A DNA stretch of 64,000 nucleotides from Natronomonas gomsonensis (GTDB lineage: Archaea > Halobacteriota > Halobacteria > Halobacteriales > Haloarculaceae), in contig NZ_CP101323.1 of the NCBI RefSeq assembly GCF_024300825.1, positions 1 through 64,000 of the forward strand, written 5' to 3'. A program made the translations under genes and the position numbers. Of the stretch, positions 20,879-46,420 are shown in pieces. Numbering within the stretch: the first letter of the stretch is position 1; each line of letters starts with the position of its first letter. The notes beneath the pieces were generated by a model. The model ran no database searches. It saw only the letters and a program-made list of their open reading frames with translations, and was not told the DNA's origin.

Positions 20879-21823
20879 ATGCCGACTGCACTCGTCACCG
20901 GTGTGGCGGGCTTTATTGGATCGAGCCTCGCCGACGCCCTACTGGACCGCGGCTACACCGTCTACGGTATGGACAACTTCGAAACCGGCCGCGAAGTCGC
21001 CCTCAAACCGCTGGAGGGTCGTGAGGAATTTACCTTCACTGAAGCCGACATTCGCGACGCCGACGCCGTGGCTGACCTCACTGACAGTGTCGATTACGTG
21101 TTCCATCAAGCCGCGGTCCCCTCGGTACCGCGGAGCGTCGACGACCCCGTGACGACGACCGACGCCAACTGCACCGGTACGGCGACGGTTCTGGACGCCG
21201 CTCGAAAGAACGACGTGGATTCCGTCGTCGTCGCCTCCTCGTCGTCGGTGTACGGCTCCAGCGAGGAACTGCCGAAAGTCGAAACGATGGAGTCCAATCC
21301 CGAGTCTCCGTATGCTCTCTCAAAGTACTTCACCGAGAAACTCGCTCTCCAGTGTAGCGACCTCTACGACATCGACACAGCCGCGCTTCGCTACTTCAAT
21401 ATTTTTGGTCCCCGACAGGACCCCAACGGCGAGTACGCCGCAGTCATCCCGAAATTCATCGATTTGATGCTCAGCGGCGAACAGCCCGTCATCTACGGCG
21501 ATGGCGAGCAGTCACGGGATTTCACCTACATCGACAACGCGATCCAGGCCAACATCTTAGCCGCCGAATCCGACGTAACCGGTGAGGCGTTCAACGTCGG
21601 TACGGGCGGTCGCGTCACCGTCAACGAACTCGTCGAGATCCTGAACGATCTACTCGGGACGGATATCGACCCTGTTCACGATGGCCCACGTCCCGGGGAC
21701 GTACGGCATTCTCATGCGGATATCTCTAAGGCCATAGAACTAGTCGGCTACGAGCCACACATCGGGTTCAAAAAGGGACTAGAGAATACCCTCGAATACT
21801 ATCGAGACGATGGCCGACGATAA
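20879..21823 (+). CDS. NAD-dependent UDP-sugar 4-epimerase (WbpP/GalE-like)
   Basis: A 314-aa extended SDR enzyme. Cofactor motif T-G-V-A-G-F-I-G at residues 7-14, the Ser-rich V-V-V-A-S-S-S-S-V-Y-G near 117-126, and catalytic Y145-x3-K149 in Y-A-L-S-K. The sequence R-Y-F-N-I-F-G-P-R-Q-D-P matches UDP-N-acetylglucosamine or uronate 4-epimerases. Its 3' end overlaps the next glycosyltransferase by 14 nt, showing an operon. Substrate (acetylated or not, uronate or not) is inferred only from the adjacent WecC-like gene. Confidence 0.85.
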   Translation: MPTALVTGVAGFIGSSLADALLDRGYTVYGMDNFETGREVALKPLEGREEFTFTEADIRDADAVADLTDSVDYVFHQAAVPSVPRSVDDPVTTTDANCTGTATVLDAARKNDVDSVVVASSSSVYGSSEELPKVETMESNPESPYALSKYFTEKLALQCSDLYDIDTAALRYFNIFGPRQDPNGEYAAVIPKFIDLMLSGEQPVIYGDGEQSRDFTYIDNAIQANILAAESDVTGEAFNVGTGGRVTVNELVEILNDLLGTDIDPVHDGPRPGDVRHSHADISKAIELVGYEPHIGFKKGLENTLEYYRDDGRR

Positions 21824-23063
21824 TCTCCCATCGATATTGCTGGTTTCGTTTCGATATCCGCCAGAAACCGGCGCAGCGGCAACCCGATTAGAGGACTTGA
21901 CAACTCGATGGGCCAGTCTTGGACACGATGTGACCGTTCTCACGACCACGCCCGACTATCCGGATGGCGAAGTCTACGATGGGTATCACAACGAGTGGCT
22001 GCGAAGAGAGCAACACGATGGTGTTGATGTCGTTACGACGAAGTCCCTTCCTGCGTCACCTTCAGACCATATTCTACGAAGAGCTATCAAATACGTTTGG
22101 TTTACCGCAATTGCAGTACTCGTCGGCACCTTCTGGCTAGACAGACGTGACATCGTCCTTGCAACGTCTCCCCAACCGTTTGCCGGTCTTGCAGGTTTCA
22201 CGATTGCGCGTCTTCGTCGTGTTCCATTCGTCTTTGAGATTCGTGATCTGTGGCCCGAAAGCTTGGTTGCCATGGGAGAAGTGGACAACACAGCAGTAAT
22301 CTCTCTGTTAGAGACAATTTCCAATTTCCTCTATACCCATGCAGACCGAGTTAGTGTCGTTGCTCCCGGTATGAAAGAAACGGTCGTTGAAGCCGGGGCC
22401 GACCCAGACGACGTTTGGCTGCACACCAATGGTATCGATCATACCTTTTTCGCCAGAGAGAATGCAGGTGGTATTGACGAGACGGAGCTGTTTGAGGATA
22501 ACTTTGTTCTCTCGTACATTGGTACGGTTGGGAAAGCACAGGGACTCGATGTCGTTCTGGATGTCGCCGAGCAGTTGCAAGCCACAGACGAGTACGACGA
22601 TATCCTGTTCGCCTTCATCGGCTTTGGAAGTCGATACGATGACCTCACACAGCGCGCCGAGGCACGGAATCTTGACAACATAGCCTTCTTGGGACGCCGT
22701 CCGATGTCTGAGGTTCCGAACTACCTACACCACTCCGATGCTGCATTTATTCACACCGAGTCCGAGGAGGCATTCGAGACGATGATTCCGATGAAACTCT
22801 ATGAAGCGCTCGGTGCCAGATTACCTATCGTCCTTGGGGCCAGTGGTGATGCCGTCGAGATACTGTCGCGGGCGGACGCTGGCATAGCTACGACACCCGG
22901 CGATGCAGGTGCGATTCTCGAAGCAGTCAAAGAGTTGCGGGAAAACGCTACAAAACGCCAGGAATTCAGCGAGAACGGTCGGCGCTATGTGGTCGAAAAC
23001 CACTCTTGGGACGCTATTGCCGAAGCGTACAGTGATAAAATCCGATGTTTGGTCGAAGGGTAG
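21810..23063 (+). CDS. GT4 glycosyltransferase (WbuB-like)
   Basis: A 417-aa GT-B enzyme. The N-terminal acceptor domain starts with S-I-L-L-V-S-F-R-Y-P-P-E-T-G-A-A-A-T-R-L, typical of WbuB-like proteins. The C-terminal donor domain has S-Y-I-G-T-V-G-K-A-Q-G-L-D-V and the E-x7-E-type region M-K-L-Y-E-A-L-G-A-R-L-P-I-V. A hydrophobic patch at about 95-135 suggests membrane association. It overlaps the epimerase gene. The gene is visibly richer in A and T than the S-layer genes, which would fit a transferred sugar cassette. Confidence 0.83.
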   Translation: MADDNLPSILLVSFRYPPETGAAATRLEDLTTRWASLGHDVTVLTTTPDYPDGEVYDGYHNEWLRREQHDGVDVVTTKSLPASPSDHILRRAIKYVWFTAIAVLVGTFWLDRRDIVLATSPQPFAGLAGFTIARLRRVPFVFEIRDLWPESLVAMGEVDNTAVISLLETISNFLYTHADRVSVVAPGMKETVVEAGADPDDVWLHTNGIDHTFFARENAGGIDETELFEDNFVLSYIGTVGKAQGLDVVLDVAEQLQATDEYDDILFAFIGFGSRYDDLTQRAEARNLDNIAFLGRRPMSEVPNYLHHSDAAFIHTESEEAFETMIPMKLYEALGARLPIVLGASGDAVEILSRADAGIATTPGDAGAILEAVKELRENATKRQEFSENGRRYVVENHSWDAIAEAYSDKIRCLVEG

Positions 23064-23071
23064 TGAGTTTG

Positions 23072-24520
23072 TCAGCGCAATCTCTGGGGTATCCGCACCG
23101 GACTATTGGCGACGACAGTTGAACGGAATTCAGTCGACAACCCATAGAGGGCGACGAAATACACGCTCGCTCCAACGCTGACGAGTGTAAGCAACACGAT
23201 GACGTTATACCCGAATTCAATCGCTTCGAACGCCCGCAGTCCAGCCATAACGATGCCGGCCATCAGACCAGCAGCGAGGAATTGCCGCGCGATTTCGCCA
23301 TGTGGAATCGAAAACGATAGGAGCGCCCGTAAGACAAAAAACGACACCACCATCCCGAACCCGGCGGAGACTGCGGTCGCAATGGCTGCGCCGACATAGC
23401 CTACGGCAGAGACGAGCACGACGTTCAATACAACGTTCGCAACGATGAATGATAGGTTGATTCGAAACGCAAGATCTGGACGGTCAATCGCGTTCAAAGC
23501 GTTCATCAACTGCTTCTGATAGCCGTACAGCAGGCTTGCTAGAACGAGTATCCACAACACGGTTGCACCCTGTGTAAATTCTGGGCCGTAAACGCGAAGC
23601 AACCGTTCCCCGAGTATCAGACTCCCGAACAACCCGGGGATGACGATGAGACCACCATACGTCAGGGAGTCATTGACGAGTTTCGAGACGATATCACGGC
23701 TATCTTCAGCATCGGCCTTACTGAGTTCCGGGAACACGGCGCTGCTAACTGCCGTATCAAACAGCGTCAGGAATGTTGCAATACTCCAAGCAACCGAGTA
23801 AATCCCGACCAATGCCGATGGGACGAAGACACCCAGAACCAATACGTCCACATCGTCGAAAGACTTGTTCTTGAGGCCGCTGAGCCACGAAAAGCGGGCG
23901 TACTCGAAGAGACTCTCGAAGTGCTCCCGTCGGGGGCGTGCCATCTCTGTCGAAATGAAGTACAATCCAACGATACCGACAAGCAAGCCGCCAGCCGCAT
24001 GGCCGATAAGAAGCCCCGTCAATTCGAATCCGAGGACGACCAAGCCGAGCTTTAGGAGACTCTGCCCGCTAATCTTCACCGGTGTCAGCAGCCCACTGAT
24101 GTGTACCTTCTGTTCGCCGCTCAGAATGTCTCTCGTAAATTCCGAGATTAATTGTAGGGCAAGGAGGCCGGCCACGAAACTTGCGACCGGACGACCAACG
24201 TACGCATCAACGTAATCACCGAGCATGATGACCGAACTGATAATAGCTACCGCAACAGCCCCAACAATGAGCAGACTCGCAGTCAGGTATTCGCCTGTGT
24301 CTCTTCCCTCGCTCATTCGTTTCTTCATCGCTGCACCAACACCCACGACGCCCGCTCCACTCGGGACCGTTAGCCAAGTGACCAATGCGAGTACTAATGC
24401 GAAATATCCCAAAATGTCTGCCCCGAGGACGCGAGCAAAATAGATCGTTGCAAGGAACCCGATTGCTGACCCACTGAGTTTCGAGACGAAGACAACAAAG
24501 GAGGTTTGACCAATCCTCAT
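23072..24520 (-). CDS. polysaccharide/oligosaccharide flippase (Wzx/AglR-like)
   Basis: A 482-aa protein with about 14 hydrophobic helices in the MATE-like polysaccharide transporter pattern, beginning T-S-F-V-V-F-V-S-K-L-S-G-S-A-I-G-F-L-A. Such proteins move lipid-linked glycans across the membrane. In Haloferax, AglR does so in N-glycosylation. It is convergent with the GT4 gene (8 nt apart) and head-to-tail with a sulfatase-like gene 32 nt upstream. The glycan it carries is not determined. Confidence 0.82.
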   Translation of the reverse strand: MRIGQTSFVVFVSKLSGSAIGFLATIYFARVLGADILGYFALVLALVTWLTVPSGAGVVGVGAAMKKRMSEGRDTGEYLTASLLIVGAVAVAIISSVIMLGDYVDAYVGRPVASFVAGLLALQLISEFTRDILSGEQKVHISGLLTPVKISGQSLLKLGLVVLGFELTGLLIGHAAGGLLVGIVGLYFISTEMARPRREHFESLFEYARFSWLSGLKNKSFDDVDVLVLGVFVPSALVGIYSVAWSIATFLTLFDTAVSSAVFPELSKADAEDSRDIVSKLVNDSLTYGGLIVIPGLFGSLILGERLLRVYGPEFTQGATVLWILVLASLLYGYQKQLMNALNAIDRPDLAFRINLSFIVANVVLNVVLVSAVGYVGAAIATAVSAGFGMVVSFFVLRALLSFSIPHGEIARQFLAAGLMAGIVMAGLRAFEAIEFGYNVIVLLTLVSVGASVYFVALYGLSTEFRSTVVANSPVRIPQRLR

Positions 24521-24552: not shown

Positions 24553-25950
24553 TTATTCCTTATAGCCCAAATCCTGAAGTCGCTGTTGAACCTCGTCTCC
24601 CATCTCGACAGCAGTTGCGTCCGGTTCGGTGCTGTCAACAAATTCAATGTGGGTATCAACAACGCTGCGTAACTCGTCTCTTACTTGCGGATGGTCATCG
24701 ACAACATTGGTGCCATCGTCGTTCCCCACCGTGTGCAACTCTTCCTCGGCAGCATTTGTTTGGGCTTCGTAACAAGTGCCGTTTTCGCGATACACGTATG
24801 TCCATCCTAGGTCTCGATACGCGAAGTTTCGATCGCCTGTTTCGTTGTCTTGCCACTCTGCAATGACGTGGTCGCGTTCCCACTCTTCGCCGGCTGCTAT
24901 GCGTCGAAGGCTCGTTCCAACAAAGGTCTCCGGTTGAGTCACTCCGGCGTACTCCGCGAGAGTTGGGGCAACATCCACGAGCCCGACGACTTCGTCGTAG
25001 CTATCTCCCTCATCGTCAGCATCGATGAATAGTGGCACGTGGATGTACTCGTCAAGGAATTTCGGCATATGGTGACTGTATCCACCATGATCGCCGAGTT
25101 CTTCGCCGTGATCAGAGGTAAACGCGGTAACAACATCGCCCCACGCCGATTCTGCGGCCGTTATCAGGCGGCCGACCTCCGAATCCATATGCCGGATTTC
25201 GGCATCGTAGAGGTCGATGATTTTCTGACGGTCTTCGGCACCGAGGTCGCCGAGCTCATCCAACATCCGACGGCGGAGTTTAACGGATTCACGGTCACTG
25301 ATTACCTCACCACGTATGGCACGTTGGTGTTCCTCCGGTGGGAGATAGGGATGATGAACGTCCATATAATGGACCCATAGGCACGCCGGCTCCGAGGGAT
25401 TACTTTCAATCCACTCGATAGCCAAGTCAGTCAGCGTTTCGGCATCAACGAACGGCGACCCCACCTCAACACCCATCGTACGTTCGCTCGCTTTAAATGC
25501 CTTAAACAACAGTTGATACAGAATGCCGTCATTATCGAGATTATCTTTGACAAACTGGCGGGCTTTCGCCGGAAGTGATTTATCCTCAATTGAGTCGAAG
25601 TATTCGTCGAACCCGCGGTTGTAATTGAACTCTTCGGAGAGATACGGGTTTGAATGGAACCCTGCTGTCGCGTAGCCGGCTTCATTGAGAACCTCAGAAA
25701 TGAGCGTTCGGTTATCCGAGAGGCGCTTGCCTCCGCCGTACATCGTGGAATACGTCGAAGTGAGGATTGCGGGGAATGAATAGGGCGTTTGACAAGCGTG
25801 AGAAAAGGCGTTTGAGTACGTTTGTGCTTCGTTGACTCTCTCATCAAGTACTGGCGTCGTATCACGGTTGTAGCCGTGCCATCCAACGTGGTCCGCCCTG
25901 AGAGAATCGACGGTGACAAACAAAATACTCGGTGGGGGCTCACTCGCCAT
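24553..25950 (-). CDS. sulfatase-superfamily hydrolase/transferase
   Basis: A 465-aa protein of the alkaline-phosphatase superfamily. The metal-binding start is V-T-V-D-S-L-R-A-D-H-V (residues about 12-22), and late metal ligands lie in A-F-T-S-D-H-G-E-E-L-G-D-H-G. The nucleophile region reads H-A-C-Q-T-P-Y-S-F-P-A-I-L, so the strict C/S-x-P-x-R sulfatase signature is missing. The Thr before P may act as nucleophile, as in phosphoglycerol transferases. It might remove or transfer sulfate or phosphate on surface glycans. There is no signal peptide. It is co-directional with the flippase. Confidence 0.75.
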   Translation of the reverse strand: MASEPPPSILFVTVDSLRADHVGWHGYNRDTTPVLDERVNEAQTYSNAFSHACQTPYSFPAILTSTYSTMYGGGKRLSDNRTLISEVLNEAGYATAGFHSNPYLSEEFNYNRGFDEYFDSIEDKSLPAKARQFVKDNLDNDGILYQLLFKAFKASERTMGVEVGSPFVDAETLTDLAIEWIESNPSEPACLWVHYMDVHHPYLPPEEHQRAIRGEVISDRESVKLRRRMLDELGDLGAEDRQKIIDLYDAEIRHMDSEVGRLITAAESAWGDVVTAFTSDHGEELGDHGGYSHHMPKFLDEYIHVPLFIDADDEGDSYDEVVGLVDVAPTLAEYAGVTQPETFVGTSLRRIAAGEEWERDHVIAEWQDNETGDRNFAYRDLGWTYVYRENGTCYEAQTNAAEEELHTVGNDDGTNVVDDHPQVRDELRSVVDTHIEFVDSTEPDATAVEMGDEVQQRLQDLGYKE

Positions 25951-26120: not shown

Positions 26121-27530
26121 ATGAGTTGCCCGAATGTTCTACTTGTCATCTTAGACAGTGTGAGGGCACAGAATACGAGCTTACACGACTATCCTATTGA
26201 GACGACACCCACTCTGGATTCGCTTGCAAACGAAGCGACTCACTACGAACAGGCTCGGTCGCCGGGTATTCACAGTATCGCGAGCCATGCGAGCATCTTT
26301 TGCGGGTATGAAGTTGAAGAACATCAGATATTCGAACACGAGACAAAACTTGACCCGGCGGCAAGTATCTGGCCAGAGTTGGCCGAGTCGGGGTACCGGA
26401 CGGGGCTCTTTACATCGAACGCCGTCGTAGCGCAAGCATCGAACCTTGCAGAGCATTTCCAACATACTGAGGGTCCGCGACGATGGACACCTCTGGAAAC
26501 CGGTTTGGACCCTGCTGACCTCGAAGGCGAAGTCCCGATAACTAGATTCCTGCGAGAAGCCCTCCGACACGACAGACCGCTCCACTCTCTTATTAATGGG
26601 GTCGGCTGTCAACTCCGCGAAAACGCGGATAACGACCCTGAGACAGAACGAGCAGCTATCTATGTTTCGGAATTTTTCGATTGGGTGGACCAAGATTCCA
26701 AGCCATGGGCAGCATGTCTCAATCTAATGGATGCTCACTATCCGTATGTCGCCCAACCGGAATTCCGACTGCATGATGACGATCAACTCCGGGCATTGGC
26801 GGATTTCTTCGAAGGCGCTGTTTCACAGCAGGTCCTCTCAGATGGGAGTTGGTGGGCGCTTACTGCGCTCGAAGACTTATACGATGAGTGCATCCGACAG
26901 GCAGATCATGGCGTACAACAGCTTTTAGACGGCCTTCACGACCGTGGTCAGTACGATGATACACTAATCATCGTAACGAGTGACCATGGCGAAGCCTTTG
27001 GGGAGTATAGTCAAGTTTCACCGTCAATTCGGCTCTGTGACCATAGTTGGGGGATTCACGAGGTGCAAACCCATGTCCCACTCGTGGTGAAACATCCGAA
27101 TCAAGTAGAATCCGAACAGATTAGCCAGGTTGCTACCCTTTCGGCATTTCCTGATGTTGTTCGCGAGGCGATTGGTGATGGACAAGGTTCGTTTGTCCCT
27201 GAATCCGGGTCAGTAATCGCCTCGACGTATCGAGTCCCAGCGCCTGGGGATATGCTTCCAGAGGTGGTTGACCCGGAGCATTATGTCGGACCGTGGCGAG
27301 CGGTTTACGAGAACGACTCTTCCGGTGTGATTAAGCGGGCGACACACGGTAGCGACGGCGCAACTATCACCATTCGTTCCGCACAGGAACGGTGTGTCAC
27401 GTCTCGTGAATATCCGGATGAGGTAACATCCGCTTTCAACTCATTCCACGATGCGGACGTTCATATGGGAACGAAGGAAACTGCTGATGAGGTCGAAGAC
27501 CGGTTAGAAGCCCTCGGATATATGCGGTGA
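26121..27530 (+). CDS. sulfatase-superfamily protein, second copy
   Basis: A 469-aa alkaline-phosphatase-fold protein, divergent from the one at 24553-25950. It starts N-V-L-L-V-I-L-D-S-V-R-A-Q-N. The nucleophile region is A-R-S-P-G-I-H-S-I-A-S-H-A-S-I-F, again without C-x-P-x-R, and the late metal site is V-T-S-D-H-G-E-A-F-G. Both proteins end with similar sequence (D-E-V-E-D-R-L-E-A-L-G-Y versus D-E-V-Q-Q-R-L-Q-D-L-G-Y), so they are diverged paralogues. Sulfated or phosphorylated glycan handling is inferred from the cluster. Confidence 0.72.
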   Translation: MSCPNVLLVILDSVRAQNTSLHDYPIETTPTLDSLANEATHYEQARSPGIHSIASHASIFCGYEVEEHQIFEHETKLDPAASIWPELAESGYRTGLFTSNAVVAQASNLAEHFQHTEGPRRWTPLETGLDPADLEGEVPITRFLREALRHDRPLHSLINGVGCQLRENADNDPETERAAIYVSEFFDWVDQDSKPWAACLNLMDAHYPYVAQPEFRLHDDDQLRALADFFEGAVSQQVLSDGSWWALTALEDLYDECIRQADHGVQQLLDGLHDRGQYDDTLIIVTSDHGEAFGEYSQVSPSIRLCDHSWGIHEVQTHVPLVVKHPNQVESEQISQVATLSAFPDVVREAIGDGQGSFVPESGSVIASTYRVPAPGDMLPEVVDPEHYVGPWRAVYENDSSGVIKRATHGSDGATITIRSAQERCVTSREYPDEVTSAFNSFHDADVHMGTKETADEVEDRLEALGYMR

Positions 27531-31048: not shown

Positions 31049-33799
31049 ATGACAGAATCAAACTATAAGGTCCGCAGTCTGTTCCTGGCTGCGCTGATGG
31101 TCTTCGGCATCTTCGCTGGGACCGTCGCGATTACGGGGACGGCTGCGGCGAACGTCAGCGATCTCGGCCTCTCGGCTGAGGACGTTCAAACCGGACAGAG
31201 TAGCGCTACGCAAACAGTAACGATCGACGTAAATGATGCGGATGGTGATGACTCGGACGCATCTAATATCATCAACCTTGACGTGTCTGCGGCTTCGTCA
31301 TTGAAGTCTGAAGCAGTAACTGACAGTGATGTCGAGATTACTGATAGTAACCAGGGCGGTGATCTCAGTGTCGACGATGTCACTGACAACGGTGACAACA
31401 TCGACATTACCGTTGATGACTCCAACGCCGATGGGAGCAACCATGACTATACTGTCGAAGTCACGCTAACTCACGACACGACGGGCGCAGGTGAGGTTAC
31501 TGACGCCTCTTACACCGCAACCGTTGATGGTGCCTCTGCTTCAGCCACCTTCGACATCACGGTCGTTGACGGTAAGCGACTCATCCAGTCCGGTGACAGT
31601 ATCTTCCAGGGTGAATCTGACCTCGTCTACGACGGTGTTCAGCCTGAAGAGCTTGAACGGACTGCTGGTAGCGACGAAGGCCTTCCGCTCGAAGACCCAA
31701 TCCCGACGAACCAGCCGACTGGTTCCTACGACAACGGGCTGGGTACTGAGGATGCGGATTACTTCACCACTACTGTTCAGACTCCCCGAATAACTGACCT
31801 CGAGATTCTGAACCAAGGAGGTGCAGACGTTGCTGATGGAACGATTTCGACCAACAACGAAGAGGCAGATGTCAACGTTGACTGGAACTTCGAGAACGCG
31901 GAATCGCTTAGCATCACTGTAGAGGACGAAAGCGGTCTCGACGTGACCAACGCAGTCGTTGATGGCGATGACACCGCTGCAAGTGACACCAACACCGAAT
32001 TCGTTCTCGACGTTGATGCACTCGACAGTGGCGAAGAATACACTGTAATAGTTGAGGGCAACGACGATCTCGACTTCGGCGAAGCCACTCGCAGCGCGAC
32101 GCTCAACGTCTCGTCGGACGATACCGCGACGCTGACCCTCGATCAAGATGAGGCCACGCGTGGCGAAGATGTCGGCTACGAGATTACGGGTGCCGACGAG
32201 GGTGACATCCACCCTGTCGTCATCGAGAACTCTGATATCACTGCAGACGACGTCGAAACTGCATTCCGAAACGTTGGTGACACTGTCACCGTTCGGAATG
32301 TCGATGATGACGCTGTAGCATTCGTTGAAATTGACGGTGGTGCCGGTGTGGGCCAGATCGAAACTGGTGTCCTCGATGAGTCGAGCATCGATGTCACGCT
32401 GTACAGTGACATCGGTGACGCCGACCCCGAAACTGCCGGTGCGGAATACCTCGATAGTGAGGATGAAGCAGACGAACAAACGCTTGAGGTCACCGAAGGT
32501 GCAGTTGAGTTGACCAGTCCGAGTGGCTCGTACGTGATCGGTACGGAAACGGACATCAACGGCACCGCGACGGAGGGTGTCGAGGACGTTGCACTCTACG
32601 TCCGTGACGAAGGTGACTACAAGCAGCTCACTAAGACGATTAATGTTGATGACGAATCCTTCGAGGAAGAGGATATCGTCATTTCGGACGATACCGAGGA
32701 CCTCATCGAAGACGACACGTTGAGTCTGCCGGGGACTTACCGTATCGCTATTGTCGATGCTGACGATCCCGAAATCACTGACGATGATGGTAACCTGTTG
32801 GAGACAGCAGGCACCTCTGACATCAGCTCCGCAGTTAATACCCAGTACAGCCTGCGAGTGGTAGACACGAACCTGTCCGTTGATTACGTGAGTATCATTA
32901 ACGGTCAGGTCGCTGACGTTGACAACCTGGAAGTTCGCGGTGTTGCACCGGGTCAGAGTGACGTCTCGGTCAGCTTCTACGGCCCGCGTGGTGGCTACGA
33001 CGTGCACTCCGTCTCGGTCGACTCGAACAGTGAGTTCGAGGACGACAGTATTGCCATCGGCGGGAACTACGACATCTCGCAGGGTGAGGTCGTGATGTCC
33101 GTCTACTCGCAAGGTCGTGACGGCGTGGTCGGTAACGGTCAAATTAATGGAGAAACTGCTACTGAGGAGGCACAACAGGACTTCATTGAGCAAATCAATG
33201 AAGACTCGCTGACGCAGCAGCAGGTCCTCGACCGCGTTGCTTCCGAGACGACGGAAGATACTGGTAGCGACGACATCGCCGTTACCTACCAGTTCCGCTA
33301 CACGGATGCTCAGACCTCGATCGACAATGTCGATGTCTCACCTGACGGCGTGACCATTGAAGGTGTCACCAACCGCCAGCCTGACGATACCGATATTACG
33401 GTTGAGGGAGTCGACGGCCCTGCCGCAGCTAGTATGGGCATCGAGTCGACTGACGAATGGGGTACTGACGGGCAGTGGAACGTCACGCTCAACGCTGACG
33501 ACCTCGAGCCCGGCAACTACACCGTCGAATCTGATGACGGTGACAGTACTGACATCGCTACCTTCCAGGTCACCGAGGAAGACCTGACGGAAGTGACTGA
33601 AACACCCATGGAAACCGAAGCGCCCACGGAAACCGAAGCGCCCACGGAAACCGAAGCGCCCACGGAAACCGAAGCGCCCGCGGAAACCGAAGCGCCCGGA
33701 ACCGATACGCCTAGCGAAGACCAGCCTGGCTTCACGGCCCTGATTGCTCTCGTTGCGCTGCTCGGTGCCGCGCTTCTGGCAGCTCGCCGTCGCGACTAA
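31049..33799 (+). CDS. second S-layer glycoprotein with PGF-CTERM anchor
   Basis: A 916-aa protein starting at ATG 31049 (M-T-E-S-N-Y-K-V-R-S), although the frame is open far upstream. The signal region L-F-L-A-A-L-M-V-F-G-I-F ends T-A-A-A-N. The ectodomain is very acidic, Asp/Thr rich with few sequons. A run of E-T-E-A-P-T repeats comes before D-Q-P-G-F and the PGF-CTERM helix with A-A-R-R-R-D. It is a paralogue of the gene at 15793. Such duplicates may serve as alternative surface coats or mixed lattices. It has its own promoter and terminator. Confidence 0.92.
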   Translation: MTESNYKVRSLFLAALMVFGIFAGTVAITGTAAANVSDLGLSAEDVQTGQSSATQTVTIDVNDADGDDSDASNIINLDVSAASSLKSEAVTDSDVEITDSNQGGDLSVDDVTDNGDNIDITVDDSNADGSNHDYTVEVTLTHDTTGAGEVTDASYTATVDGASASATFDITVVDGKRLIQSGDSIFQGESDLVYDGVQPEELERTAGSDEGLPLEDPIPTNQPTGSYDNGLGTEDADYFTTTVQTPRITDLEILNQGGADVADGTISTNNEEADVNVDWNFENAESLSITVEDESGLDVTNAVVDGDDTAASDTNTEFVLDVDALDSGEEYTVIVEGNDDLDFGEATRSATLNVSSDDTATLTLDQDEATRGEDVGYEITGADEGDIHPVVIENSDITADDVETAFRNVGDTVTVRNVDDDAVAFVEIDGGAGVGQIETGVLDESSIDVTLYSDIGDADPETAGAEYLDSEDEADEQTLEVTEGAVELTSPSGSYVIGTETDINGTATEGVEDVALYVRDEGDYKQLTKTINVDDESFEEEDIVISDDTEDLIEDDTLSLPGTYRIAIVDADDPEITDDDGNLLETAGTSDISSAVNTQYSLRVVDTNLSVDYVSIINGQVADVDNLEVRGVAPGQSDVSVSFYGPRGGYDVHSVSVDSNSEFEDDSIAIGGNYDISQGEVVMSVYSQGRDGVVGNGQINGETATEEAQQDFIEQINEDSLTQQQVLDRVASETTEDTGSDDIAVTYQFRYTDAQTSIDNVDVSPDGVTIEGVTNRQPDDTDITVEGVDGPAAASMGIESTDEWGTDGQWNVTLNADDLEPGNYTVESDDGDSTDIATFQVTEEDLTEVTETPMETEAPTETEAPTETEAPTETEAPAETEAPGTDTPSEDQPGFTALIALVALLGAALLAARRRD
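33611..33697 (+). repeat. tandem 18-bp repeats in S-layer gene 2
   Basis: Five nearly identical units of gaaaccgaagcgcccacg code for E-T-E-A-P-T just before the PGF-CTERM. The spacer is likely an extended, O-glycosylated stalk. Units this alike can expand or contract by slippage without shifting frame. Confidence 0.8.
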
Positions 33800-35826: not shown

Positions 35827-35922
35827 AGTCTGTTGACCACGGCCAGCAGAGTAAGTGTGAGGGTCGCCGGACTGTCGGCGGTAAGCCGAAGCCTCAAACC
35901 CTCCCGCCTGCTACCCGGAGTC

Positions 35923-38625
35923 ATGAACGTAAGCGTCGTCGGGAGCGGCTACGTCGGCACCACGCTTTCGGCGTGTCTCGCCGACCTCGGTCACGACGTG
36001 ACCGCCATCGACGTCGACGAGGAGACGGTCGAGCGACTCAACGCTGGCGAAACAACCATTCACGAACCCGGTCTCGACCCGTTGGTCTCCGCCTATGCCG
36101 GCGACCGACTGAACGCGACGACGGACCACGCCGCGGCCGCCGACACCGACATCACCTTTCTGGTCGTCGGGACGCCCGCCCGCGAGGACGGTTCCATCGA
36201 TCCCTCGGCGCTTTTGGCCGCCGCCGAGGATGTCGGCGACGCCATCGCCGACAAAGCGGGCTATCACCTCGTCGTCGTGAAGTCGACGGTCCTCCCCGAC
36301 GTCATCGAGACGGAACTCGTCCCGGCAATCGAACGCGCGTCGGGAAAGACCGACGGCGAGGCGTTCGGCGTCGCGGTCAACCCCGAGTTCCTGCGTGAGG
36401 GTAGTGCCGTCGACGACTTCATGGACCCCGATAGAATCGTCGTCGGCACCGACGGCGACGGCCGCGCCCTCGATTTACTCGCTGAGTTGTACGAACCGCT
36501 CATCACCGACTGGGACGTGCCCACCGTCGAGACGGGTCGCCGGGAGGCGGCGATGATAAAGTACGCCAGCAACGCCTTCCTCGCGGCAAAAGTCAGCCTC
36601 ATCAACGATCTCGGCAACATCTGCAAGGAGTTCGGCGTCGACACCTACGCAGTCGCCGACGCGATGGGGATGGATGACCGCATCGGCGAGCGGTTCCTCA
36701 ACTCGGGGGTGGGTTGGGGAGGCTCCTGTCTTCTCGGTGACGAGCTCATCCTGATTAAAAACAAACAGGGAACGCGGCTACTCACCATGGCCGAGTTCTT
36801 CGAGCAGTACGTGGCTGATGAGACCGTTGAGGACATGTCGGTCCTCAGTTACGATGAAGGGGAAGCTACGTTCAAGCCGGTTCAGGCTGCGAGCAAACGT
36901 ACCTACGATGGGGATCTCTTCACGATTCGGACTCGAATGAACAAGGAAGTCACGGTCACCCACGACCACCCGATGCTCGTCGTGGAGGGTGGTGAGCCGA
37001 CGGTTCGAGAAGCCCAGCATCTCGAAGACGGAGACGAACTCCCCGTTCAGACCAGCCTCCCTGCTGATCCGATCGGTAAGTTCGACATCATCGAATTGGT
37101 GGCCGATTCGCCGGCCTTCGACAACGAGGCCGTCTATCTGAAGCCATCTTTCGATATGGACGAGGTCAAAGACGAACTCCGTGACGTCCTTCGGGAGTAC
37201 AACAAACAGTTTAGTTACGACAAAGTCCATGAGTTCATCCGTCGAGATTATCTTATCCTTGATGCCTTCCTTGAGTTCGAAGACCAGTTGTCGATTGGCC
37301 GCGACGACTTGAGCCTCTATACGACTGTCGGTGGGGGGCAAACGTACGTACCGGCAATCATTCCAGCGGATGAGGAATTTTGGCGATTCATCGGCTACTA
37401 CCTCAGTGAGGGCCACATCAATGAAGACGACTCCGGACACGGCACAACGACTCGGAAGCGCGTCATGCTGAGTTTCCATCCCACCGACGAGCAGGCATAC
37501 GTCGCCGAGGTCGAATCGTATCTCGAGCGACACGGAATCCACTACCGGACAAGTACTCAGGAAACGGCCACGCAAATAGAGACATCGAGCCGGGTACTTT
37601 CCCACTTCCTCGAATGGCTTGGCTGTGGCACTGGTTCATATACAGCGGCAATCCCGGATACAGCCTTCCAAGAGACAGAACGAAACCGGAAGGCGCTCTT
37701 GTCAGGACTCTTCCGTGGTGACGGATACATCGAATACACGAGCCATTCGAACGCTGTCGTCTACGATTATGGGTCAGTGAGCGAAGAGCTGATTCGAGGA
37801 ATGCAGTTCCTGCTTCATAGTCTCGGTATCGTCCCAAGTTACAAGACGTCTCAGTCCGCTAAATCAACTCGGCCTGCCCACTTCCTCCGCGTGAGTGCGA
37901 AAGACCAGATTGGGGCCCTCAAAGAAATGTTCCTCCCTTCAGAGCAGGAACGAATCGAGCGGCGGCTTAACGATGTCGCTGATATCAGACCAACCGGGCA
38001 CACCGATGGTGGGGCCCATACCACCGTTGCTGTCAAGGATATCAGCGTGACCGAAAATGAGGTTGAGGTGTACTCTCTCGAGGTTGCGGATACGCACACC
38101 TTCGTGACGACTGACGCGCTCGTCGTTCACAACTGCTTCCCGAAGGACACCGCTGGACTCGCCGCTGCCGCTCGGGACAACGATTACACACCGGCGATGA
38201 TAGAGGCTGCAATCGAGGTCAACGACGGTCAACCCGAGCGCCTGCTTGAACTGCTTGATTCCCACGTTGACGTGGTGGACAAACGCATCGCCGTCCTCGG
38301 CCTCGCATTCAAGGCCGGTACCGACGACATCCGTGGCTCCCGTGCCAAGCCGGTCATCGAAGGGCTGCAGGACCGAGGTGCCGATATCGTCGCCTACGAC
38401 CCTCTCGCCAAGGAGGCGATGGCCGAACAGTACCCCGATATCGAATACGTCGACTCCGCGGCCGAGGCGCTCGACGGCGCCCACGGCGTCGCTGTCGTTA
38501 CTGACTGGCCCGAATTCACCGACCTCAACAAGGAGTTCGATGCGATGGCCAACCCCGTCGTCATTGATGGCCGCCGTATCATCAGTCGTCGGGACGGACT
38601 TACCTATGAAGGACTGACGTGGTAA
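35923..38625 (+). CDS. aglM: UDP-glucose 6-dehydrogenase (AglM-like) with an intein
   Basis: The 900-codon frame encodes a 431-aa host enzyme interrupted by a 469-aa intein. The host has N-terminal V-V-G-S-G-Y-V-G-T-T-L, V-V-V-K-S-T-V-L-P and N-P-E-F-L-R-E-G-S-A, and the spliced active-site motif G-G-S-C-F-P-K-D, whose Cys is the catalytic thiol. It should make UDP-glucuronate from UDP-glucose for N-glycosylation, like AglM of Haloferax. ATG 35923 is chosen over the upstream open frame because the Rossmann motif begins right there. It is convergent with and 1 nt from the STT3-like gene. Confidence 0.9.
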   Translation: MNVSVVGSGYVGTTLSACLADLGHDVTAIDVDEETVERLNAGETTIHEPGLDPLVSAYAGDRLNATTDHAAAADTDITFLVVGTPAREDGSIDPSALLAAAEDVGDAIADKAGYHLVVVKSTVLPDVIETELVPAIERASGKTDGEAFGVAVNPEFLREGSAVDDFMDPDRIVVGTDGDGRALDLLAELYEPLITDWDVPTVETGRREAAMIKYASNAFLAAKVSLINDLGNICKEFGVDTYAVADAMGMDDRIGERFLNSGVGWGGSCLLGDELILIKNKQGTRLLTMAEFFEQYVADETVEDMSVLSYDEGEATFKPVQAASKRTYDGDLFTIRTRMNKEVTVTHDHPMLVVEGGEPTVREAQHLEDGDELPVQTSLPADPIGKFDIIELVADSPAFDNEAVYLKPSFDMDEVKDELRDVLREYNKQFSYDKVHEFIRRDYLILDAFLEFEDQLSIGRDDLSLYTTVGGGQTYVPAIIPADEEFWRFIGYYLSEGHINEDDSGHGTTTRKRVMLSFHPTDEQAYVAEVESYLERHGIHYRTSTQETATQIETSSRVLSHFLEWLGCGTGSYTAAIPDTAFQETERNRKALLSGLFRGDGYIEYTSHSNAVVYDYGSVSEELIRGMQFLLHSLGIVPSYKTSQSAKSTRPAHFLRVSAKDQIGALKEMFLPSEQERIERRLNDVADIRPTGHTDGGAHTTVAVKDISVTENEVEVYSLEVADTHTFVTTDALVVHNCFPKDTAGLAAAARDNDYTPAMIEAAIEVNDGQPERLLELLDSHVDVVDKRIAVLGLAFKAGTDDIRGSRAKPVIEGLQDRGADIVAYDPLAKEAMAEQYPDIEYVDSAAEALDGAHGVAVVTDWPEFTDLNKEFDAMANPVVIDGRRIISRRDGLTYEGLTW
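36727..38133 (+). other. full-length intein with LAGLIDADG homing endonuclease
   Basis: The 469-aa insert begins with Cys1 (C-L-L-G-D-E-L) and ends V-V-H-N, followed by the host Cys. Block B T-V-T-H-D-H-P lies at 76-82. The endonuclease motifs are F-I-G-Y-Y-L-S-E-G-H-I at 221-231 and L-L-S-G-L-F-R-G-D-G-Y-I at 324-335. Block F is V-E-V-Y-S-L-E-V-A-D-T-H-T-F-V. All splicing residues (Cys1, block-B His, penultimate His, Asn469, Cys+1) are present, so it should splice. The homing site is the active-site codons. Confidence 0.92.
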
Positions 38626-40905
38626 TCACGCCCGTACCGTCTCACCGCTGTTCACCGCTGCTTCGCTGACGGACACTGGCTCTGTCGCCGCACCCTCAAG
38701 GTCGTACTCGCCGGGATAGGGAACCGTCACACTGTAGGTCCCGTTCGCGTTCGCTGTCGTTTGACGCTCGTAGGTGAATTCGTCACCTTCAATGTCGACC
38801 TCGGTCGTTAGCGTCACGGTTGCGTCCGGTTCGGCGGCCCCTTCGATTGTCGCGCCGGGGACGATGCGGAACGCCTTGTAATCGCCGATCGGACTGGCGT
38901 ACAGCGCCCGGTAGTGGGCGAGCCCGGCGACGCCCTCGCTGCGACTCCCGTAGTGGTCGTGCAGCCGCGATTGCATCATCGCGTCGGTGATGTTCGGCGA
39001 CCCTGGAACCGGTTCGGTCACGAGGTAGCTGTCGCTTCTGACGTACTGCTGGTAGGATTCGTCGGGGGTCTCGGAAAACGTGAACGGGCGATAGTTGCTC
39101 TGTGCGTAGCCGTAGCTTTGGGCTTCACCATTGACGTAGTAGTTGTACATTCGGTTCCACGACCACGGGCTGAAGACGTACGACTGGGGGTAATCGTAGC
39201 CGTTTTCTTTGGCGTGGCCATCGATGAACGACGCCGTTTCGTATTGCTCTTGTGGGATGGCGAGGTCGCTCGTGACGATGGGGGCCTGAATCGCCGAAAG
39301 CCCGCACACCAAGACGACGACGAAACCGATGCGGACCGCCACGTCCCGGTCGGGAATCGACAGCTCCAGGCTCTCGTTTTCAAATGGAACTGGCGAGCGG
39401 GCGGCGTCAACCCATCGGGCGAGCGCGACGATGACGACACCGGCGAACAGCGCGACGAACGGGGCGAGTTCCCCACCGTATCGCAACTGGACGGCGCCGA
39501 GACCGAGCAACACGACACCGTAGCTGGTCGGTGCGAGCCAGTGGCGCTCGCCGTCGTAGACGCGGTAGACGCCCCAGCCCATCGCCGGTATCGAGACGAC
39601 CAACAGTAACCCGAAGAGGACCAGCCACCCCATCGTCGACCCGCTGAACAGCGAGTTGACTTCGGCGATGTTTTGCCCTTCGAACAGCCGTGATAGCTGT
39701 CCGGTGATGCGTCCCCACGTTGTCGGAGCGAGCAGTGCAACAGCGGCAGTGACGGCGGCGGCACCACCGACGCCGGTCACTGGGAACGTCCACGGTGGGA
39801 GTTCGAGGTGACGCCACGCGGCCACCGCGCTGACGACGCCGGCAACGCCAACGGCCAAGAGAACCGGTACCGCAACGACGACAGTGTCGTGCCAGCCCCA
39901 CACGAGATGTGTAAGGCCGACGAGCGTCGCTCCCAAACCAACCCCGAGCGTCGTCGCCACGCCCGGAGCGAAAAGCGGCTCGTCATCTCGAACTGCAAGG
40001 GTCCCGCCGACCACGACGGAGAGGGCAACCGGGAGCAACAACAACGCTGCGGCCCACCAGGCGAGCACGCTTCCGGCGACGCCGAGACCTAACAGCGAGA
40101 TTGCTCGGATGGTCGGCCACTCCACCTCCAGCGTGTCGATGCCGAGCGTCACGGTCAGTCCCCACGCCGCCATGACGAGCCACGGGGCGTCGAAGGCGTG
40201 GTGGTCGACGAACCCCGCACTTGAACGGGCAACATGTAACGGCAACACGGCGAGGACGAGGACGCTCGCAAGCGCGATGCGGCGGTCGCCGGTCACCTCA
40301 CACGCAAACAGGTACAACAGCAGGCCCGTCATGACGGCCGCAATCACCGGCAGGACAGCGAGAACTGTGCTGTGGTGTCCGAGCCCACCGGCGAGGTCGG
40401 CACTACTGAGCATGATTAGTACGGTCAGTGGCTCCTGTGTCTCCAACCCCCCGGGAAGGTTCGAGGGTCCCCAGCCATTTTGCAGTCCTTGTTCGACGTG
40501 ATAGACGTAGTAGTAGGGGTCGTTGGCCGGGTAGACCACGCGGTCGCGGAACACCGATCCGTACGTAGTCATGCGGAAAGCGACGGTGAGACCGAGCAAT
40601 CCGAGTAGACTCGCCACGGCCGTCCGGTCGATGTCGGGCAGCGAGAACTCGATGTCGGTCGTCTCGCTTTCCTCGACTTCCCCGAATATCGCCGCCTCGA
40701 CAGCCCTAGGGTCGGCGAGTCGGTACTCGTCGCCGGCCGATTCGACCACGCCAGCACCGACCAACTCGCCGAAGACACCGGAGTCGACGGGCACGTCGTC
40801 GAACGCCCATGTTTCGGTGTCGCGGTCAACCGCCCGAACGTCCTCGAGGGCAGGTTCGAGGTCCGGCCGGTCGTCCAGTAACTCACGCACCTCGCGGGCG
40901 TCCAT
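38626..40905 (-). CDS. STT3/AglB-like membrane protein lacking WWDYG
   Basis: A 759-aa protein. Residues 1-95 form a soluble, winged-helix-like domain. About a dozen helices follow, then a periplasm-type C-terminal domain with a short Ig-like end. STT3-type acid motifs are visible: N-D-P-Y-Y-Y (128-133), V-D-H-H-A-F-D (233-239) and N-I-A-E-V-N with E415. Where oligosaccharyltransferases have W-W-D-Y-G this protein has W-S-W-N-R-M-Y (581-587). It could be a paralogue with altered acceptor recognition or another GT-C enzyme. The place beside aglM supports a glycan role. Confidence 0.7.
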   Translation of the reverse strand: MDAREVRELLDDRPDLEPALEDVRAVDRDTETWAFDDVPVDSGVFGELVGAGVVESAGDEYRLADPRAVEAAIFGEVEESETTDIEFSLPDIDRTAVASLLGLLGLTVAFRMTTYGSVFRDRVVYPANDPYYYVYHVEQGLQNGWGPSNLPGGLETQEPLTVLIMLSSADLAGGLGHHSTVLAVLPVIAAVMTGLLLYLFACEVTGDRRIALASVLVLAVLPLHVARSSAGFVDHHAFDAPWLVMAAWGLTVTLGIDTLEVEWPTIRAISLLGLGVAGSVLAWWAAALLLLPVALSVVVGGTLAVRDDEPLFAPGVATTLGVGLGATLVGLTHLVWGWHDTVVVAVPVLLAVGVAGVVSAVAAWRHLELPPWTFPVTGVGGAAAVTAAVALLAPTTWGRITGQLSRLFEGQNIAEVNSLFSGSTMGWLVLFGLLLVVSIPAMGWGVYRVYDGERHWLAPTSYGVVLLGLGAVQLRYGGELAPFVALFAGVVIVALARWVDAARSPVPFENESLELSIPDRDVAVRIGFVVVLVCGLSAIQAPIVTSDLAIPQEQYETASFIDGHAKENGYDYPQSYVFSPWSWNRMYNYYVNGEAQSYGYAQSNYRPFTFSETPDESYQQYVRSDSYLVTEPVPGSPNITDAMMQSRLHDHYGSRSEGVAGLAHYRALYASPIGDYKAFRIVPGATIEGAAEPDATVTLTTEVDIEGDEFTYERQTTANANGTYSVTVPYPGEYDLEGAATEPVSVSEAAVNSGETVRA

Positions 40906-43502: not shown

Positions 43503-43949
43503 ATGAAGCTTACAGAACTATTTACGGCCGACGAATCGGAAAGGGCAGTCTCACCAGTAATCGGGGTTATCCTGATGGTGGCAATCACGGTCATCCTTGC
43601 CGCTGTCATTGGGACGTTCGTCCTAGGCTTGGGCGATCAAGTCCAGCAGACGAGTCCGAACGCACAGTGGAATTGGGATCAACAGAGTACCAACCCAAAA
43701 CTCCAATTGACGCACGAAGGGGGCGACAGCGTCACCCCAGCACGACTTGAGGTCACTAGTACCTCTGGCGACGTTGACCCGACCGACAACTGTGGAGTCG
43801 CTGGAGAATGGAGTGGCGGTTCGACAATTACCGCCGGTAGTACCTGTGATGTCGTTCAGGGCGGATCCGCTTCGGGCACTTACCGTCTACTCTGGACGGC
43901 CGAAGGTGGCGGGTCCTCCTCGACGCTTTCGACGTACGAAGTGAACTAA
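43503..43949 (+). CDS. archaeal type IV pilin
   Basis: A 148-aa protein. The class III signal peptide has basic/acidic residues before the cleavage zone, then [21 protein letters not shown], the conserved hydrophobic spine of haloarchaeal PilA-type pilins (DUF1628-like N-terminal domain). Two Cys flank the variable middle (about residues 98-119) and could form a disulfide. The C-terminus [14 protein letters not shown] is shared with its neighbours. It likely forms adhesive pili after prepilin peptidase cleavage. Confidence 0.88.
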
Positions 43950-43973
43950 CGCCGACACCGATTTTCCAGTATT

Positions 43974-44797
43974 TTGCTTGAAACACCCACCGACACAGCG
44001 GCTGCAAAGCGGGCGTTCGTCCGTACCTACAGCAGCCGCGGGTTCGAAGACACCTGGGATATCATCGAGGCCTTCGAAGAGGTCCAGGCAGTTCGTGGGA
44101 AGTATCCAGAGCGGGGCTCGTCGTTCGTGGCACAGAAGGCCGGCTACCCGCGGTCATGGATTCGGCGTTGGGTCGACGACGACGCGATTCCTTACCGTAT
44201 CAAGGCCTGCAGACGGCGCTCTCGCATGGGTGGCTGGACCTTTCACCCGGCGACGAAGCGACGCGCTCGTTGGTAGCGCTAATTGGATACGTCCTCGGGA
44301 AAGGGTCGCTGAAAGGCGAGAAATACGGGCCGCGGGCCTCGGCTGGCTGGCGCGTGACGCTCGACGAGCTGCACGAGGCGTTTGCTGCAGTTGGTGTCGA
44401 CTCGGAGACGGTCACAACCGACGACCCGGAGCGACCACCACAGGTCCACCCCACAACGAATGGCTCGGTGTTGGGACGGATGCTCTACGTACTCGGTGTC
44501 CCGGCAGGGCGTGAAGACGTGCGGCGTAACCGATTGCCGTCAATCCTCAACGAAATCGATATTCAGTCCCGAGCGCGGTTTTGTGAGTTGTTCGTACGCC
44601 AGCGGGGGCTCGACAGCCACTACGAATCCTATGAGCCGACGCGGGTGTTGGTAGATCGACCGCAGCACTTCAGGCGTGAGTTCGCGGCACTTGTCGAGGA
44701 CGTGACTGGCGAATCCGCGGCACCGTATAGTCGGGGCGTCGAGGTCTCGCTGGACGGGATGGTGGCGTTGGGTGTCGACCCGCGCGACGACGGGTAG
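43974..44797 (+). pseudogene. frameshifted DNA-binding-like gene between pilins
   Basis: Frame 1 from TTG 43974 gives a helix-turn-helix-like part (A-Q-K-A-G-Y-P-R-S-W-I-R-R-W-V-D-D-D-A-I-P-Y-R-I, shown in part). Near 44205 it must shift to the frame that reads G-L-Q-T-A-L-S-H-G-W-L-D-L-S and A-L-I-G-Y-V-L-G-K-G-S-L. The latter resembles a worn LAGLIDADG helix, with R-F-C-E-L-F-V-R-Q-R-G as a possible second one. Such HTH-LAGLIDADG proteins occur as regulators or homing-enzyme relatives. The identity is tentative. Confidence 0.5.
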
Positions 44798-44974
44798 CAA
44801 TTGCGAAGCAAGACATACAAAATAACAATTAGCCGGCTATCCCGATGTCGATTACTGACACCCGATTGTACTCAACGGTAGCTCAGTGTTTGAGCTATCT
44901 CGTAGCTTCATTAGCTGATCCGTGCTTCTACTGTCCACGAAGCCGGACGCGTCGGTAGTTGCACTTGATTCACC

Positions 44975-45415
44975 ATGCAACTCACACAGACTATTACTGC
45001 ACAGAACGACGAACGAGCCGTCTCCCCGGTCATCGGAGTGATATTGATGGTCGCGACCACTGTGATTCTCGCGGCTGTCATCGGAACGTTCGTTCTCGGC
45101 TTGGGTGACCAAGTCCAACAGACGAGTCCGAACGCACAGTGGACGTGGGACCAACCGACCGACACCAAACTTGAACTGACGCATCAGGGCGGCGACACCG
45201 TCGCTGTGGACCGGGTGATCGTGACTGGCGGCGATAACATCGACTCGACGAACGACTGTGACGTAAACAACGACTGGAGCGACTCGAATGCTGAAATTAC
45301 TGCGGGCGACACCTGCGCCAATATCCCCACCGGAGACGCCGGTGGGACATACCGCTTCGTTTGGACGGCTGACGGCGGTGGCTCATCGTCGACGCTTTCA
45401 ACATACGATGCCTAA
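44975..45415 (+). CDS. archaeal type IV pilin
   Basis: A 146-aa pilin. The start is [21 protein letters not shown] with the same hydrophobic spine, [14 protein letters not shown], and the shared C-terminus [13 protein letters not shown]. Two middle Cys are in matching positions to the 43503 pilin. Only the middle third differs strongly, so these are cassettes of one pilin type. Confidence 0.88.
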
Positions 45416-45580
45416 GACCGGACCAGGACCGATATCTTTCGAGTGCAAGGCAGAGAAATCTCAGCTGGCTGGGTATCCTGAGATCGACTGAGTGACGCTG
45501 ACAGGTATTTTGTTGGATAGCTGTCTCTACTCTCTTCGGAGAAACTGGTTTGCTAAATCACGTTGGTGTGTCATCGCATA

Positions 45581-45729
45581 GACGTCGAATTTGCGTTCGA
45601 TTACGGGCATGATGTCTCTGCGTTTACCCGGGGGAGGCGACGATGAACGTACCGTTGGAGTGTGCGAACTGTGGTGTGGTGTGGACGCTCACGCTGACGA
45701 GTCTCCGATCCGGCAAAGAGGGGCCGTAA
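45581..45729 (+). pseudogene. degenerate copy of the small zinc-binding protein gene
   Basis: The frame D-V-E-F-A-F-D-Y-G-H-D-V-S-A-F-T-R-G, after a one-base shift near 45635, continues N-V-P-L-E-C-A-N-C-G-V-V-W-T-L-T-L-T. It matches the 46-aa protein at 46556, but the first Cys pair has become Phe and Tyr and there is no start codon. Confidence 0.7.
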
Positions 45730-45877
45730 GCCAGCGCCACCGCCTTTCGCCAAGTGAGCCGACTCACTGCCGAACCCGGTTTAGGGAGGGAGGACACGTT
45801 CGGACACCGGAGTGTTATCAACGCCTGAAAACGGGTGATTGGGTTTATCCAACGCGGATGCCATCCTAAATATATCT

Positions 45878-46420
45878 ATGACGCCCTCCACTCCAGAGGC
45901 GGTTCGTCTTGGGGAGCGTGGCGTTTCTCCCGTTGTGGGTGCCGTGTTGATGGTTGCAATCGTCATCTTGCTTGCTGCAGTCCTCTCAACAATGGCGCTC
46001 GGATTCGAGGACGAACTCCAAGAGCCGGCACCGAGCGGCGCGTTCGATCAGGAGTACGTGGCATCCGGGACAGATAACACGGATGATAGACCGTATGTGA
46101 CTATTACGCACAACTTCGGGAAGACCGCTGACGCCGACAACATCATCATCAAAGACGATGCCGGGAACACGATCAGGTGGAACGATGTCTGGACGGGTGG
46201 CCCTGAGGTTAGAGCCGGCGAGTACGTTCATATCGACGGCTTCCAAAGTGATTCAGCCCTCCAGCCCATCTGTGAGAAAGGGGATAGTTACTGGATTATC
46301 TGGGAGACCGACGATGGGGACGAACTCGTCGTCAACAAATGGACTGCACCGTCTGACCCGAACCTCCCGCCGAGTTCGTCATCCGATGACGATGGGGATG
46401 GCATTCCGAACTGGTGTTGA
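45878..46420 (+). CDS. divergent type IV pilin-like protein
   Basis: A 180-aa protein from ATG 45878. The N-terminus has L-G-E-R-G-V-S-P-V-V-G-A-V-L-M-V-A-I-V-I-L-L-A-A-V, the pilin spine, but the rest is unlike the three cassette pilins. It ends with a Ser-rich linker, D-D-D-G-D-G-I-P-N and a terminal Cys. D-G-D-G-I-P is the calcium-binding signature of thrombospondin type-3 repeats. It may be a minor or tip pilin. The frame opens 39 nt earlier without a better start. Confidence 0.8.
   Translation: MTPSTPEAVRLGERGVSPVVGAVLMVAIVILLAAVLSTMALGFEDELQEPAPSGAFDQEYVASGTDNTDDRPYVTITHNFGKTADADNIIIKDDAGNTIRWNDVWTGGPEVRAGEYVHIDGFQSDSALQPICEKGDSYWIIWETDDGDELVVNKWTAPSDPNLPPSSSSDDDGDGIPNWC

Follow-up and report, generated by a model that had tools for sequence, protein, structure and literature searches.

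The window, the whole 64,000-nucleotide stretch of Natronomonas gomsonensis DNA that was analysed, carries at 38626–40905 on the minus strand a gene for a divergent STT3/AglB paralogue of 759 residues, assigned from its open reading frame, Pfam, an AF2 model and a fold match. We call it STT3b, a name used here for the separate haloarchaeal clade that holds this gene. The frame starts with ATG and stays open for 759 codons. The protein begins with an N-terminal winged-helix-like domain (residues 1–74; 40684–40905, minus strand), predicted to be cytosolic and delimited by profile, profile–profile and domain-model evidence. A GT-C membrane domain follows (residues 91–548; 39262–40635, minus strand), placed by the AF2 model and the match to the fold of A. 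fulgidus AglB, and the C-terminal end is formed by an AglB_L1 peripheral domain (residues 684–757; 38635–38856, minus strand; Pfam PF18079, 47.5 bits). Within this frame, translation and alignment locate NDPYYY (residues 128–133; 40507–40524, minus strand), which contains the first-loop Asp, D129, whose counterpart in the AglB of this genome is D61; the DHH motif D234–H236 (40198–40206, minus strand; VDHH spans 233–236), aligned with the DHH of AglB; and I-A-E with E415 (39661–39669, minus strand; NIAE spans 412–415), the counterpart of the TIxE/SVSE glutamate. These three elements correspond to the metal and donor residues of STT3, AglB and PglB oligosaccharyltransferases. At the place of WWDxG stands the family motif YVFSPWSWNRMYNYYVNG (39127–39180, minus strand), assigned from motif counts and profile–profile alignment and containing W581, R585 and N588; its WSWNRMY occupies residues 581–587, and no WWD occurs anywhere in the 759-residue translation. 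A sequence-only reading of this gene had pointed to the same four elements, N-D-P-Y-Y-Y, V-D-H-H, N-I-A-E and W-S-W-N-R-M-Y for WWDYG, all of which are found at these residues.

STT3b lies tail to tail with a gene for a UDP-glucose/GDP-mannose dehydrogenase containing a LAGLIDADG intein (35833–38625, plus strand; Pfam). The window also contains a glycan island, with genes for a GT2 glycosyltransferase (18583–19500, plus), a second, intein-free UDP-sugar dehydrogenase (19556–20827, plus), an NAD-dependent sugar epimerase (20879–21823, plus), a GT4 glycosyltransferase (21810–23063, plus), a polysaccharide/MurJ-type flippase (23072–24520, minus) and two sulfatase-fold proteins (24553–25950, minus; 26121–27530, plus). 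Similar 'sulfatase' genes of Halobacterium salinarum have been studied as sulfotransferases, according to the available text of PMC11980604; by analogy, the first of the two may be a sulfotransferase, and the sulfatase annotation of both may be misleading. The likely acceptor, judged from its sequence, is an S-layer glycoprotein homologue (31049–33799, plus) in which a 34-residue signal is followed by NVSDLG, or by ANVSDLG if cleavage falls one residue earlier, its N-terminal Asn thus sitting in N-V-S. A second S-layer-like, PGF-CTERM protein with a signal peptide of the same family (15793–18441) has no Asn in its first four mature residues (AQGDNAD). Elsewhere in the window, several pilin-like open reading frames with near-alike N-termini stand in a row at 43503–46420, and a Fic-domain gene adjoins a TnpB/IS605 transposase-like gene (8044–9210 and 9484–10908).

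The sequence-only reading had called the protein STT3-like, and our comparisons place it firmly in the STT3 fold and family. The Pfam STT3 model PF02516 scores 27.2 bits on the window protein, against a cut-off of 24.5, and 29.4 bits on STT3b of Hbt. salinarum, whereas TIGR04154 (archaeo_STT3), the NCBIfam model of canonical haloarchaeal AglB, gives 126.7 bits, below its curated cut-off of 450. By sequence search, the solved relatives are A. fulgidus AglB chains only (E 3e-7). The AF2 model (mean pLDDT 91.3, pTM 0.83) has the same protein as its best PDB fold match (Z 37.1, rmsd 3.8, 596 residues aligned), followed by STT3 of OST complexes and PglB, with the other GT-C folds at lower Z (ArnT 23.9, DPY19 23.3, Pmt4 21.2). 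Profile–profile alignment with 14 AglBs (probability 100) pairs D129 with D61, D234 with D178, E415 with E382 and R475 with R444. An unrelated GT-C family, against which an alignment check had been suggested, is disfavoured, with sequence profile, profile–profile alignment and fold all grouping STT3b with AglB. The search for a genuine AglB elsewhere in the genome likewise succeeded: the second STT3 match, about 0.7 Mb from STT3b, is a 936-residue AglB with AWWDYGHWI; STT3b is thus a paralogue and not the standard enzyme. AglB is also present in all 47 further STT3b genomes examined.

N-glycosylation is taught as tied to N-x-S/T, the +2 residue being recognised by STT3 enzymes via WWD, whose residues hold the sequon Ser/Thr in the known enzymes. 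By comparison, W-x3-R-x2-N-x4-G occupies the WWDxG position in 74 of 77 STT3b members and WWD in none of the 77, whereas WWDxG is found in 31 of 31 canonical AglBs. In the profile–profile alignment with the 14 AglBs, W581 lies opposite the second W of WWDYG, and the D571 of that motif faces S582. Conservation was read from a 53-member STT3b alignment, at least two rows of which (G136 and G217) use sequences from the alignment-based scan of named genomes described below: D129, H235 and R475 are kept in all 53 members, E415 in 52 and D234 in 45, as are W581 in 52 and R585 and N588 in 53, with D, D, H and E all kept in 45. Judged from these alignments, the STT3b family retains the catalytic set and has lost WWDxG, and since the features are conserved across the family, they are not due to chance. 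In a tree of 39 STT3b proteins and 31 canonical AglBs, one branch with support of 100 splits the two.

Two readings of the family bear directly on these residues. Loss of the sequon pocket, together with the O-linked disaccharides of haloarchaeal S-layer proteins described in an excerpt of PMC9943897, would suit an O-linked oligosaccharyltransferase acting, for example, on the Thr-rich stretch of S-layer proteins; however, STT3b retains the counterpart of the Asn-amide-binding I-x-E, and we regard this reading as very improbable. In one subclade (L052, L054, L055, L056, L057 and L059), DHH is altered to DHQ, EHR, EHL or HHR, position 234 being E or H and position 236 R or L. The STT3b of G005, a genome without a PF02397 gene, also carries E415Q. 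The EHR, EHL and HHR forms and the single E415Q would fit a pseudoenzyme or an accessory subunit that modulates AglB, but retention of all four residues in 45 of the 53 members, and a gene position that tracks PF02397 and not AglB (see below), leave this the least credible of the readings considered.

The clade is widespread among haloarchaea. Searching with the window protein, we found an STT3b match, in some cases partial, in 33 of 60 relatives at E 1e-5, and 80 of the 145 genomes of the order sample (each at least 90% complete) have one at E 1e-40. A scan of named genomes with a single STT3b protein as query gave no match; an alignment-based scan of named genomes retained 80 loci, every one from a haloarchaeon according to its title, in which DHH and NDPY are conserved by construction, the two peptide patterns of the scan requiring FxDHHAFD and NDPY. 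These loci include Halobacterium salinarum DSM 3754, Haloarcula, Halorubrum, Haloquadratum and Natronomonas, and none of the 80 is from Haloferax.

The N-terminal domain links STT3b to a second group of membrane proteins. In the AF2 full model and in a model of the domain alone (pLDDT 84), residues 1–74 adopt a helix–helix–helix–hairpin–helix arrangement (helices 3–12, 14–29, 42–51 and 66–73; strands 54–57 and 60–63). Structural comparison returned mostly winged-helix proteins, with a best Z of 8.0 over 76 residues that is weak on the tool's own scale, and Foldseek with this domain gave no match at E < 0.001; the label 'winged-helix-like' is thus weakly supported by the predicted models. In 37 of 39 genomes, a profile of the domain matches STT3b itself or mostly open reading frames of about 300–340 residues. 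Those read among the non-STT3b matches (L034–L037, L207, L208, L209 and two in L211) are all EMC3-like by eye, and Pfam confirmed PF01956 for that of L035, the one so checked; L210 and L213 yielded no legible reading frame. Several of the insertase genes, among those at L034–L037 and L207, adjoin adenylate kinase genes, as judged by eye. The hhalign comparison of the STT3b domain with that of the EMC3/TMCO1-type insertases gives a probability of 98 (E 5.5e-14), and the window genome has its own such insertase at C1:171037–171927. Window STT3b has no Pfam match to PF01956, its sole part in common with the insertases being this N-domain of about 75 residues. As the N-terminus of STT3 is cytosolic and the insertases appear to have one more membrane segment at the front, a cytosolic location of the domain is probable in both protein types. 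The sequence-only reading had described a regulatory-type, winged-helix-like front of about 95 residues; the winged-helix resemblance survives, over residues 1–74, while the regulatory role finds no support. We set aside a transcription regulator, the domain being fused to a membrane protein and common to membrane insertases, which makes docking to export machinery likelier than gene regulation.

The neighbourhood of STT3b is rich in genes for glycan assembly. Among 81 STT3b loci, a PF02397 polyprenyl sugar-phosphate transferase is found at 42, an SDR epimerase at 40, a nucleotidyltransferase at 38, a sugar-nucleotide dehydrogenase-like gene at 29, GT4 at 22 and GlmS at 12; these labels were assigned by sequence, with a Pfam check of the PF02397, nucleotidyltransferase and GlmS genes of Hbt. 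salinarum. An S-layer homologue lies within 10 kb at only 4 of the 81 loci, and S-layer adjacency was therefore dropped as a general rule. In a set of 48 genomes chosen for having STT3b, many of them fragmented, a PF02397 gene is present in 47, and its distance from STT3b is at most 10 kb in 31, 25 kb in 39 and 50 kb in 42; AglB comes as close as 25 kb to it in 1, with genes on different contigs scored as distant, for AglB as well as for STT3b. The order sample of 145 divides into 76 genomes with both genes, 4 with STT3b alone, 23 with PF02397 alone and 42 with neither, and the two lie within 25 kb of each other in 52 of its 80 STT3b genomes. The genes for STT3b and PF02397 are thus linked. 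On contig C1 of the window genome, PF02397 is grouped with GT4, WecB-like and WecC-like genes at the opposite end, and the gap to STT3b is 38.8 kb across the contig ends if C1 is circular. PF02397-type transferases make diphosphate-linked starters, and a diphosphate donor is hence a natural inference for STT3b; such transferases also start exopolysaccharides.

A genome-wide comparison of S-layer-type proteins reveals an association of STT3b with an N-terminal Asn. The query was a profile of their common 34-residue signal peptide that includes no mature residue, 15 of its 16 rows coming from STT3b genomes; the best match per genome was taken, with cleavage sites inferred from the common A-x-A end. 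Of the 145 genomes, 102 were read, 13 having no signal match and 30 being left out with matches outside those listed. Asn occurs among mature residues 1–4 in 49 of 62 STT3b genomes versus 9 of 40 without STT3b (Fisher 1.7e-8, on genomes that are not independent), leaving as exceptions 13 STT3b genomes without it and the 9 others with it, while windows deeper into the mature sequence give 0.20–0.24. The Asn peaks at position 2, in 37% of the STT3b genomes versus 5% of the others. The association gives p 5e-5 when labels are permuted within families and only p 0.033 within genera; genus means are 0.75 (25 genera with STT3b) versus 0.11 (17 without). The effect is kept in the best 44 signal matches (28 of 32 versus 3 of 12), and genomes with PF02397 but no STT3b show the Asn in 3 of 9. 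Genomes with intact catalytic residues have it in 33 of 42 cases and those with degenerate residues in 3 of 7, a difference that is not significant (p 0.07), and degeneration as the cause of a missing Asn was set aside.

The residue at +2 from this Asn is S in 14, D in 13, A in 9, G in 5, E in 4, P in 2, V in 2 and T in none of the 49 genomes, so that S/T is not significantly above background (p 0.16). This bears on the possibility that STT3b is an ordinary second AglB that transfers a different glycan and reads N-x-S/T with other residues. Such an enzyme would agree with its place in the STT3 family and its intact catalytic residues, and the available part of PMC5131992 notes, in general terms, genomes that carry multiple copies of aglB, together with variant forms of WWDXG. 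However, the +2 counts, the absence of WWD from all 77 members and the facing of its first W and D by other residues in the profile alignment make it an improbable account.

In Halobacterium salinarum, where STT3b was seen in one strain, DSM 3754, the gene (L118:9971–12292) is separated by 3.3 kb from that of the S-layer protein (L118:4115–6655) and adjoins GlmS-like, PF02397 and two nucleotidyltransferase genes. The S-layer gene is homologous to that of the solved Haloferax volcanii protein (E 1.8e-149). After a signal that we take to be 34 residues long, as in the Hbt. halobium S-layer protein, its product reads A-N-A-D, so that Asn-2 is naturally without a sequon Ser. As relayed by reviews, Zeitler in 1998 reportedly observed glycosylation of Asn-2 without the sequon Ser, and a second oligosaccharyltransferase was postulated. 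According to the available text of a review (PMC2952790), the Asn-2 glycan of Hbt. salinarum is a repeating-unit glycan built on dolichyl diphosphate, and Asn-2 glycosylation persists when the sequon Ser (Ser-4) is replaced by Val, Leu or Asn; the same text states that a suitable explanation is lacking and that a second transferase is unsubstantiated because a single gene was found. A 2019 paper, in the portion available, still calls the part of AglB in this step unclear (PMC6591318). In the open-access literature, which leaves out most subscription journals, we found no gene assigned to the second transferase.

Taken together, we consider it probable, though well short of assured, that STT3b is a second haloarchaeal oligosaccharyltransferase, which transfers diphosphate-linked glycans, independently of a sequon, to Asn situated close to the mature N-terminus of S-layer-type proteins. 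In the proposed model, the PF02397 transferase would start the glycan on a dolichyl-diphosphate carrier, the diphosphate-linked glycan would be flipped outward, and STT3b would move it onto an Asn near the newly exposed N-terminal end of surface proteins of the S-layer type. Ser/Thr at +2 would not be required, because the WWD pocket that reads this residue is replaced, and the cytosolic winged-helix-like domain may dock STT3b at the export or ribosome machinery. Activity, diphosphate donor, acceptor and docking are all what we infer from the observations above. A more specific version, in which a sequon-independent, diphosphate-fed enzyme tethered to export by the insertase-type domain picks Asn by its nearness to the new mature N-terminus, is possible, and we hold it just short of probable. 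The earlier suggestion that the protein glycosylates a different sequon accordingly gains indirect support from the missing WWD, the retention of most metal and donor residues and the sequon-free N-terminal Asn of STT3b genomes, while that of another lipid-linked sugar step stands only as a different donor, which would be diphosphate-linked.

Several observations weigh against the second-transferase reading: the modest within-genus permutation value and the exceptions of both kinds, the non-significant contrast between intact and degenerate members, the rarity of nearby S-layer genes, and, in the window genome itself, the distance of PF02397 and the N-V-S context of the S-layer Asn. The main rival holds that a relaxed canonical AglB glycosylates Asn-2, with STT3b serving another island pathway, such as the joining or export of an acidic exopolysaccharide, in which a diphosphate-linked glycan would go to a non-protein acceptor. 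The exopolysaccharide-starting role of PF02397-type transferases and the 23 genomes of the order sample that have PF02397 without STT3b are compatible with it. The strongest counter-evidence to our reading comes from Hfx. volcanii, which has three noncanonical N-glycosites according to an excerpt of PMC8241124 and AglB as its only STT3 homologue according to the available text of PMC3871713, suggesting that AglB may be relaxed. On the other hand, STT3b retains a C-terminal globular part with AglB_L1, as expected of a peptide-holding enzyme, and the N-terminal Asn follows STT3b, genomes with PF02397 alone mostly lacking it; we therefore judge the relaxed-AglB account unlikely. A natural and widespread STT3 clade without the WWD pocket would represent a second recognition logic within one enzyme family, the more specific, nearness-based version would solve the Halobacterium Asn-2 puzzle with an enzyme that spans about half of haloarchaea, and a sequon-free transferase would be of interest to glycoengineering.

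Archaeal AglB (A. fulgidus AglB-L, PDB 3waj and 7e9s, and haloarchaeal AglB) resembles STT3b in fold over 596–640 residues, and both have the metal-site D/DHH/E, the AglB_L1 peripheral domain and a conserved membrane Arg. Unlike AglB, STT3b is without WWDxG and has W-x-x-x-R-x-x-N-x4-G in its place, contains the additional N-terminal winged-helix-like domain and a shorter C-terminal part, and is encoded by a gene linked to that of a PF02397 transferase. Haloarchaeal EMC3/TMCO1-type insertases (PF01956) have an N-terminal domain of about 75 residues homologous to that of STT3b, the remainder being unrelated. For the low-salt Agl5–Agl15 pathway of Hfx. volcanii, the transferase is likewise a sought non-AglB oligosaccharyltransferase, but STT3b is unlikely to be this enzyme and was rejected as such, the species being AglB-only in the available text of PMC3871713 and no Haloferax standing among the 80 loci. 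Identity with Haloarcula Agl23 was also rejected, as an excerpt of PMC11182771 describes Agl23 as a flippase. By comparison, the predicted sequon-Ser independence, diphosphate carrier and S-layer N-terminus of the postulated second Halobacterium oligosaccharyltransferase fit STT3b, which we propose to be that enzyme; its gene is thus a candidate in the puzzle, dating from 1998, of an Asn-2 glycosylated without the sequon Ser from a diphosphate carrier.
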